Of a stretch of 64,000 nucleotides of DNA, positions 4,580-59,294 are shown in pieces. The DNA lies in assembly GCF_000969885.1 (NCBI RefSeq), contig NZ_CP009501.1, positions 2,246,908-2,310,907 of the forward strand, written 5' to 3'. The number at the start of each line of letters is the position of its first letter. The first letter of the stretch is position 1. The position numbers were made by a program, and so were the translations under genes. The notes below the pieces were generated by a model. That model was not told the DNA's origin and did not search any database. It saw nothing but the letters and a program-made list of their open reading frames with translations. The DNA is from Methanosarcina thermophila TM-1 (GTDB taxonomy: Archaea > Halobacteriota > Methanosarcinia > Methanosarcinales > Methanosarcinaceae).

Positions 4580-5035
4580 ATGGATCGTGATACAACCCGG
4601 GATCAAAATATTAAAAAAAACGAATCCTTTGACGGAGAATACCTCGGCCTTCCGGATATCCCCCTTCCGGAAACTGATAATGTGCTGTATTCAATCCTCA
4701 ACTCTTTAAACCAGAATATTGCAGATTTTCACACCTTTGTGAAATTTAACCCCTATCTGTCAGAGGATCATCTGAACGTTGAACTGCTTAAAAGAAGCAT
4801 GGGCATCCACAGGGACTTTACAGCCCTATTTCTGCACACCAAAGAGGAAATGATATTAACCTACCCTGAATTTGTAGAAAAAATAGAAAAACTATTGTTT
4901 AAGGGAAATGTAGGTACCGACTGCATAAAATATACCCACAAATTATGTGCATCAATAAGTGACTATAAAATTGCCCTACACAGAGAAGGTTATTTGCCTG
5001 ATCTGAGAAGACCGTTACCGTTAGTTGATCTGTAA
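4580..5035 (+). CDS. hypothetical protein, 151 aa
   Basis: I do not recognise a family. The product is soluble, mildly acidic and predicted mostly helical after a polar N-terminus; landmarks are YLGLPDIPLPETDNVLYSI (~22-40), LKRSMGIHRDFTALFLHTKE and a C-terminus YLPDLRRPLPLVDL. No signal peptide or membrane segment. The ATG at 4580 is chosen because AGGGTGAT ends five bases before it; an in-frame upstream start at 4508 would put coding sequence into the structured leader and has no ribosome binding site. It has its own promoter and a long leader. Short tandem repeats begin just after its stop. Confidence 0.65.
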   Translation: MDRDTTRDQNIKKNESFDGEYLGLPDIPLPETDNVLYSILNSLNQNIADFHTFVKFNPYLSEDHLNVELLKRSMGIHRDFTALFLHTKEEMILTYPEFVEKIEKLLFKGNVGTDCIKYTHKLCASISDYKIALHREGYLPDLRRPLPLVDL

Positions 5036-5160: not shown

Positions 5161-5424
5161 TCCTTTTTTTCTATAAGTCATTCTTTTATGATTTAGAGGT
5201 TTAAACGTATATATTTTTAAAAATGTTGTAAAAGTTGTAAAAAGACCTGGGATTATTAATCGTAACAACCAAATGTGTTTTCAAGCCTAATTTCTTACGC
5301 GGAAGAAAATTTTCTTTATTGTTTATCCCTGAACTTCTAATATATTTTACGGTACTTCCAGAACCTTATATTTAATTTTCAGTACATCCGTAGGTTTATA
5401 TTACTCAAAGATATCTGGAGTGCA

Positions 5425-5535
5425 AGGCATCTGTGAAAAAAACGGTGTCTTTGAAAAACGGCACGCGAAAAACGGATTTATTAAAAAACGGTTTACGAAA
5501 AACGGTACAAAAAACGGCATTTGAAACAGATGCCT
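5425..5535 (+). ncRNA. candidate repeat RNA: six AAAAACGG motifs inside a terminal stem
   Basis: AGGCATCTGT (5425-5434) pairs perfectly with ACAGATGCCT (5526-5535). Between the arms AAAAACGG occurs six times, starting at 5438, 5454, 5468, 5484, 5498 and 5510, so spacing is 12-16 bases. A TATA-like TTTATATTA at 5394-5402 sits ~25 bases before the left arm, and T-rich tracts follow the right arm, as expected for start and end of an archaeal transcript. Unpaired repeats in a closed loop resemble protein-titrating RNAs in outline only. An alternative is a DNA-level iteron cluster. No known family is recognised. Confidence 0.4.
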
Positions 5536-5928
5536 ATTCATATTTGATACGAATCTATTCTTATTTATCCTAACCTTTATTATTTTTTCTTATTTGTCTT
5601 ATTTTTTACCGTTATTTTTCTAACTTTGTCTTAATTTTTACCGTTATTTTTTCCTAATTTACCTCAAAATTTTTCTCATTCTCCATTCTATATTTCTCAC
5701 TTTGAGGTTTAATATATTCAAGTTTTGAATTTAGGTTTACCTTTAATCTGCATATAGAGCGCCTCTACACAATAGCTTATTGGCAATAAAAATTGCACAG
5801 GTTAATGTTTTTTCAGCTTAAGATCCACAGGATCGCTTATCAAGAAGCTCGGGTTTAAGAACACAATTTAAATGTATAGACAGTCTAATTTTAAAATATT
5901 CTCTGCAGATACTTAAGGTGGGATTTAA
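5536..5928. other. AT-rich spacer before the NERD gene
   Basis: This stretch is T-rich with a twofold repeat of TTTTTACCGTTATTTTT (around 5605 and 5636), whose complement contains AACGG like the motif upstream. I see no open frame with coding character until 5929. Confidence 0.5.
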
Positions 5929-58172: not shown

Positions 58173-59294
58173 TTGACAGGTAATGATATACTACTCTGGG
58201 ATGAAACCCTATTTAAAGACCCCTCTGTGCTTGAGCCTGATTATCTTCCTGATTATTTTCCTCATAGGGAATCCCAGTTGAATGCGCTCAAATTCGCGCT
58301 CAAGCCAGCCCTGCGCGGTATGCGACCTTTGAATTGTTTGCTTGTAGGTCCTCCCGGAACAGGAAAAACCAGTGCGGTTATGAAGATATTCAGGGAAGTT
58401 GAAGCCCATGCACCTGGTGTCGTTACCGTTAAAGTCAACTGTCAGATTGATTCCACGCGTTTTGCAGTAATATCCAGAATTTACAGGAAGCTTTTTGGGA
58501 TTTCTCCTCCCAACTCGGGGGTTGCATTCAGGAAGATCTTTGAAACCGTTGTTAATTTCCTTGTTTCTTCAGAAAAAGTTCTGCTTGTTGCTCTGGACGA
58601 CCTCAACTATCTCTGCTATGAAGGGCATGCCAATGAAGTGATGTACTCGCTTTTAAGGGCACATGAACAGTACCCTGGAGCGAAGATAGGAGTAATCGGG
58701 ATTGTAAATGACGCCTCGGATCTTTACTGCCTGGATTCCAGGGTTAATTCGGTTTTCCTGCCTGAAGATATTCCTTTTCCGAGATATGGAAGTGGTGAGA
58801 TTCTTGATATTCTAAAAGATCGCGTAAAGTACGGCTTTTATCCCAGGGTAATTTCTGACGAGCTGCTGGAACTTATTGTCTCGTATGTAGAAAGGACTGG
58901 AGACCTCAGGGTTGGAATCGACCTTCTCAAACGTTCTGGTTTTAATGCTGAGCGCAGAGGAAGTCGCACAATCTCTTCTGAAGATGTGGAAAAAGCTTAC
59001 GAAGCATCCAAGCTGCTCCATCTCTGCAGGGGTATAAGCCTCTTGTCTGATCCCGAAAAGCGTCTGCTCGAATTAGTAGCAAGAAAAGGAGAAATCCAGG
59101 CAGGTGAGCTTTACAAAGCTTTCCGTGAATTAACGCAGCTAGGATACACACGTTTTTATGGAATTGTCAACAAACTTCAGGCGCTTAATTACATAGATGC
59201 GGATTTTACAGGCAAGGGACAGAGAGGCAGGACAAGAATTATAAAAACAAAATTCGAAACTGAGGATGTTCTTAATTGCCTTGAAAAAAAGTGA
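58173..59294 (+). CDS. cdc6: Orc1/Cdc6-type replication initiation protein
   Basis: 373-residue AAA+ initiator. Walker A GPPGTGKTSAVMK (~60), Walker B LLVALDDLNYL (~140), sensor-1-like GIVNDASDLYCLD, sensor-2 in GDLRVGIDLLKRSGFNAE (~255), and a C-terminal winged helix (~300-365). It is of the second (Cdc6-2-like) archaeal type, whose origin role is less clear than Orc1-1. The start is TTG at 58173. The 268-base upstream spacer shows no clear origin recognition box pair, so I do not call an origin here. Confidence 0.88.
   Translation: MTGNDILLWDETLFKDPSVLEPDYLPDYFPHRESQLNALKFALKPALRGMRPLNCLLVGPPGTGKTSAVMKIFREVEAHAPGVVTVKVNCQIDSTRFAVISRIYRKLFGISPPNSGVAFRKIFETVVNFLVSSEKVLLVALDDLNYLCYEGHANEVMYSLLRAHEQYPGAKIGVIGIVNDASDLYCLDSRVNSVFLPEDIPFPRYGSGEILDILKDRVKYGFYPRVISDELLELIVSYVERTGDLRVGIDLLKRSGFNAERRGSRTISSEDVEKAYEASKLLHLCRGISLLSDPEKRLLELVARKGEIQAGELYKAFRELTQLGYTRFYGIVNKLQALNYIDADFTGKGQRGRTRIIKTKFETEDVLNCLEKK

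Follow-up and report, generated by a model that had tools for sequence, protein, structure and literature searches.

A 10-bp inverted repeat in Methanosarcina thermophila marks an element that is well supported, by comparison with related genomes, as a conserved, single-copy, promoter-equipped, non-coding unit whose ends pair and whose interior reiterates an A-rich motif. It is very probably a real non-coding RNA (ncRNA) gene. The DNA analyzed, called the window throughout, is the 64-kb stretch spanning bases 2,246,908-2,310,907 of the 3,127,379-bp Methanosarcina chromosome. The element adjoins a metabolic gene cluster in this window, and about 30 relatives have its arms, motif, and promoter at the corresponding locus.

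Parts of the element and its distribution

The initial annotation described two perfect 10-bp arms with 91 bases between them and six AAAAACGG motifs inside the arms, and both are present in M. thermophila. The start-to-start spacing of the motifs is 16, 14, 16, 14, and 12 bases. The TATA-like sequence that had been placed about 25 bases before the stem is found 22-30 bases 5' of it. The T-rich tracts reported 3' of the right arm are there as well, with 65% T at +20 to +60 past the stem and a T6 run. A predicted transcript would start at about 5422-5428 and end within the T-rich tract. The features, in window coordinates, are as follows.

4580-5035 (+), P0001, 151 amino acids, predicted helix bundle, the neighbor upstream of the element
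5345-5359 (+), upstream promoter box 1, TTTTACGGTACTTCC, the first of two GTAC boxes (GTAC positions, alignment)
5376-5392 (+), upstream promoter box 2, TTTTCAGTACATCCGTA, near-invariant (mismatch search, alignment)
5395-5403 (+), TATA box, TTTATATTA (position of TTATAT before the left arm)
5422-5590 (+), predicted non-coding transcript (TATA distance, T-rich tract, no conserved frame, no Rfam family)
5425-5434 (+), left arm of the closing stem, AGGCATCTGT (invariant where readable)
5438-5445 (+), AAAAACGG motif 1
5454-5461 (+), AAAAACGG motif 2
5468-5475 (+), AAAAACGG motif 3
5484-5491 (+), AAAAACGG motif 4
5498-5505 (+), AAAAACGG motif 5
5510-5517 (+), AAAAACGG motif 6
5526-5535 (+), right arm of the closing stem, ACAGATGCCT (pairing across 28 genomes, stem probability)
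5583-5588 (+), T6 run, candidate terminator

Just 3' of the element, at 5580-5643, is a T-rich direct repeat of two 32-nt units, each with TTTACCG at its end, and this repeat is further expanded in one relative (G021).

The 64-kb window contains nine AAAAACGG words compared to 2.6 expected, a count reached by none of 100 shuffles, and six of the nine fall within 80 bp. The whole genome has 241 copies in 3.13 Mb on both strands, or one per about 13 kb, which shows that six copies in 80 bp are not a chance cluster. The word is not enriched genome-wide because this count is below that of the reversed control (376, both strands).

Of 31 Methanosarcina genomes, 26 carry a single copy of the element, as does each of the four genomes of a sister genus. 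A DNA search located it in most Methanosarcina genomes. A pattern consisting of the left arm and first motif then identified 25 of the 31 Methanosarcina genomes and nearly always matched only once in a genome. The array is also present in G018, where the left arm lies within a run of N and the right arm is unrecognizable, and counting this array brings the genus total to 26. Contigs end inside the array in G012 and inside the promoter block in G001. The left arm plus first motif search gave no convincing element in the other 77 Methanosarcinaceae genomes; G035 has one match, without a right arm, in apparently coding sequence. Four Methanosarcina genomes (G005, G011, G017, and G024) lack both the element and a P0001 ortholog, thus the element is not essential. 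These four genomes do not all group together in a PorB tree with weak support, which suggests separate losses of the element.

Conserved ends, promoter, and predicted RNA structure

The arms were compared in the 28 genomes where both are readable. The left arm is identical in all of them, and the right arm retains full pairing in 25. Of the other three genomes, G026 and G065 each have a single U·G, and G013 has one terminal mismatch. The distance between the arms ranges from 61 bases (4 units, G064) to 495 bases (34 units, G027), and the array consists of 4 to 34 units of AAAAACG[G/A], a more than eightfold range in length. Compensatory changes are absent from the arms of the 28 genomes, and covariation cannot be counted because the arms do not vary. 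Arm pairing is predicted from conservation, not covariation: the ends stay complementary and fixed while the DNA between them is remodelled. Loss of the arms or of the motif spacing at a retained locus, which the initial annotation had named as contrary evidence, is not what the relatives show; the arms persist.

The units have a fixed core and variable surroundings. The arrays of the 25 fully sequenced elements contain 372 runs of at least four A, and CGR comes directly after 335 of them. In the flanking DNA, A-runs precede a mixture of letters, and C-G-purine is far from common there. The array spacers of these 25 elements take 108 different forms. Unit spacing is mostly 14 or 15 nt and falls between 11 and 16 nt in nearly all steps.

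The promoter region has a constant geometry. TTATAT starts 29 or 30 bp 5' of the stem in 24/24 genomes. Of these 24, 23 also have two GTAC boxes exactly 30 bp apart, at positions -74/-75 and -44/-45 relative to the stem. T-runs follow 3' of the stem, in most relatives from +22. An exact or one-mismatch copy of TTTTCAGTACATCCGTA is found at the locus in nearly all element-bearing genomes; sites elsewhere in the genomes mostly have two mismatches, and the block is a near-unique marker of the locus. A tandem duplication of P0001 in G013 brought a copy of the promoter block directly before a P0001 copy (L080, G013:C4 about 38320).

A conserved reading frame across the element was not found, and stop codons close the frames in nearly all species. 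A small protein or leader open reading frame was rejected: the 34-codon GTG frame of M. thermophila is broken or absent in the relatives. The Rfam 15 search returned nothing over threshold for the element region, where the best chance match was SNORD112 (E 5.7, 15 bits against a cut-off of 58), and the scan of the 64-kb window identified only a tRNA. The element is not the leader of the next gene because the downstream gene differs between genomes. It is not the 3' UTR of P0001 because other genes intervene in the sister genus, where the two are about 2 kb apart, and this separation identifies the element as an independent unit.

The predicted mean stem pairing probability in the 25 full sequences is 0.94 at 37 °C and 0.96 at 50 °C, and the predicted stem holds even with loops near 500 nt. 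The M. thermophila element alone folds no better than its shuffles (z -1.2). Compared with spacer-permuted arrays, the array interior is less stable in 22 of the 25 species; a stricter control that also fixed the G/A after CG gave this result for 17 of 21. This low-structure signal is modest, and the species compared are related rather than independent. Regular hairpins between the units were rejected because of this lower stability, which favors the display of single-stranded sites. The RNA with single-stranded repeats proposed in the initial annotation is supported by the promoter geometry, the absence of coding, and the unstructured interior. The sponge role it attached to this RNA is more tentative: transcription, protein binding, and titration are inferred.

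Proposed function of the repeats and alternative explanations

The reading we lean toward, with somewhat better than even confidence, is multivalent display of a single-stranded motif that titrates a sequence-specific RNA-binding protein. The element would be a stand-alone ncRNA gene of Methanosarcina and the sister genus driven by its own TATA promoter. The RNA would be roughly 100-550 nt long, and its 5' and 3' parts would pair as the invariant 10-bp stem to close a weakly structured loop bearing 4-34 AAAAACG[G/A] units every 14-15 nt. The repeats would capture many molecules of a single RNA-binding protein with specificity for single-stranded AAAAACGR. By titrating or assembling this protein, the RNA would relieve its action on other RNAs.

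An interior without structure would lend itself to RNA-RNA pairing no less than to protein binding, and M. mazei has regulatory sRNAs that act by base pairing (PMC3510493, PMC11456600). The repeats could then be reiterated seeds for YCGUUUUU in mRNA ends or leaders, or a sponge for an sRNA with such a tail. We consider a base-pairing function unlikely, since neither the word nor its complement is enriched in the M. thermophila genome (241 compared to 376 for the reversed control), and a seed of five A plus CGG would be weak and unspecific.

A second conserved RNA candidate carries the same motif. It is located outside the window on the minus strand of the M. thermophila genome at C1:2188909-2189112 (L162:8909-9112) and was found in every genome tested, which were ten Methanosarcina and, in a diverged form, G064 of the sister genus. 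The loci in the relatives are L044, L049, L147, L140, L174, L177, L172, L168, L170, and L165. The candidate is divergent from a gene for a 2-isopropylmalate/citramalate-type synthase (L049 open reading frame, named by eye). It has a TATA-like TTATTTATA and a terminal hairpin. Its start TAGGGTTGCTTCT does not vary among the ten aligned sequences, and it contains 4-7 AAAAACGR-type A-run motifs in a non-tandem context. RNAalifold predicts 43 pairs, 8 with double changes, and the hairpins covary. A match to Rfam was not found for this RNA, and its sequence is unrelated to the element except for the motif. That two independent conserved RNA candidates both carry AAAAACGR is the best pointer to a trans-acting partner common to them. 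The second RNA and the element would work together in one circuit, in the manner of CsrC and CsrB. A CsrB/CsrC-like archaeal circuit, in which two unrelated ncRNAs with reiterated single-stranded AAAAACGR jointly titrate an RNA-binding protein that is a global post-transcriptional regulator, is put forward tentatively.

Tandem repeats (minisatellites, period 10-35) are common in the intergenic DNA of Methanosarcina, and part of the copy-number change in the element is ordinary slippage. Minisatellites of AAAAACGG with different spacers are found in unrelated intergenic regions (L031, L033, L036, L038, L039, L041, L043, L145, and others). Inspection by eye shows that short inverted repeats also close the arrays in L031 (CTGCAGTTAA/TTAACTGTAG) and L036 (CCTCAG/CTGAGG). 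Crude open reading frame calls gave no clear-cut uniform sense orientation of the other AAAAACGG arrays relative to the gene strand. A repeated tRNA cluster in another Methanosarcinaceae genus (L030, G031:C138), its tRNAs identified by eye, has an AAAAACG-rich spacer between two tRNA genes. The frequency of minisatellites in the genus, the other AAAAACGG arrays, and the fast change in unit number would all be expected of an ordinary ncRNA that functions through its stem or ends and has a neutral A-rich minisatellite growing and shrinking in its loop. Slippage accounts for the changes in array length, but not for the fixed core. The CGR is kept in two genera while the spacers change, the second, unrelated RNA keeps the motif in a non-tandem context, and complete arrays never have fewer than four units in any genome. 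These data make a neutral array improbable, to much the same degree as base pairing.

The initial annotation also offered a DNA iteron array as an alternative. Direct repeats within an inverted repeat, one per chromosome, resemble iterons or a centromere-like site for a DNA-binding protein near a replication origin. The main orc1 is 25.4 kb before the element in M. thermophila, outside the window, and the distance is 24-36 kb in most genomes, but it extends to 66 kb in G014 and G022 and to 145 kb in G027. The repeats, spaced 11-16 bp apart and mostly 14-15, are out of phase with the DNA helix and are always 3' of the TATA box at a fixed distance, and the second RNA, which is structured, also carries the motif. 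The orc1 distances, promoter orientation, and unphased spacing make a DNA iteron or centromere very unlikely, and origin iterons or ORB elements were rejected since the element is not adjacent to orc1. A second Orc1/Cdc6 gene is located at the far end of the window (58209-59246, plus strand; G000:C1:2305116-2306153).

The gene upstream of the element, P0001, has no Pfam, NCBIfam, or solved-structure relative. Its model is a helix bundle of moderate confidence (pLDDT 73) with no significant fold match, and on these grounds a recognizable RNA-binding fold was rejected. A locus-bound P0001 ortholog is found in exactly the element-bearing genomes plus G001, where the contig ends. This shared distribution could reflect the inheritance of a single locus from a common ancestor, and P0001 is a candidate partner by association only. 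A second P0001-like gene (about 60% identical) is present in G029, G028, G014, G002, G020, G016, G022, and G023. These paralogues have in-frame TGA and/or TAA stops in several genomes and are apparently decaying. Only general minisatellites were found near them, with a AAAAACGG array in one genome. A tandem-repeat RNA beside a small gene of matching distribution recalls a type III toxin-antitoxin RNA, or another repeat RNA tied to a neighboring gene product, but this is the least credible reading because the unit is about 15 nt and not about 36, P0001 is upstream with a separate promoter between and 2 kb away in the sister genus, P0001 matches no known family, and the downstream gene is not conserved.

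Comparison with known systems

CRISPR arrays have identical repeats of 20 or more nt with unique spacers; the element has an 8-nt core and short recurrent spacers and was rejected as such an array. The antitoxin RNAs of type III toxin-antitoxin systems are tandem repeats of about 34-36 nt located 5' of the toxin gene in one operon. Like ToxI and its relatives, the element is a putative variable-copy tandem-repeat ncRNA beside a small protein gene. Unlike ToxI, it has 11-16-nt units and an invariant closing stem, there is no toxin gene in an operon with it, and its putative partner gene is upstream and separable.

The CsrB/RsmZ RNAs present repeated GGA in hairpin loops and bind CsrA/RsmA. The element resembles the bacterial CsrB/CsrC and RsmX/Y/Z RNAs in three ways: a dedicated ncRNA bears a single short motif many times over, at least two RNAs with the motif coexist in a cell, and the copy number is variable. 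It differs in that it is archaeal, carries AAAAACGR instead of GGA, and uses one weakly structured loop instead of many hairpin loops. A search for CsrA (PF02599) in the M. thermophila genome gave no match, and the E. coli, B. subtilis, and T. maritima controls were positive. This result rules out CsrA as the partner of the element. The absence of CsrA and the different motif make the element CsrB-like in mode, but not a member of that group.

We know of no protein-titrating repeat RNA in Archaea. A literature search that covered mainly freely readable papers found neither such an RNA nor a description of the element. The element is very probably a new ncRNA family in Archaea and brings the idea of a reiterated-motif RNA in a new variant. 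It provides a single-copy candidate in the genetically tractable model methanogens M. mazei and M. acetivorans, the motif can be used as bait for a sequence-specific archaeal RNA-binding regulator, and the natural series of 4 to 34 units allows a comparison of dosage. The M. mazei RNAs sRNA162, sRNA154, and sRNA41 act by pairing with mRNAs (PMC3510493, PMC11456600). They are intergenic regulatory RNAs in Methanosarcina, as is proposed for the element. A tandem-repeat loop is reported for none of them in these two papers, whereas the element has one.
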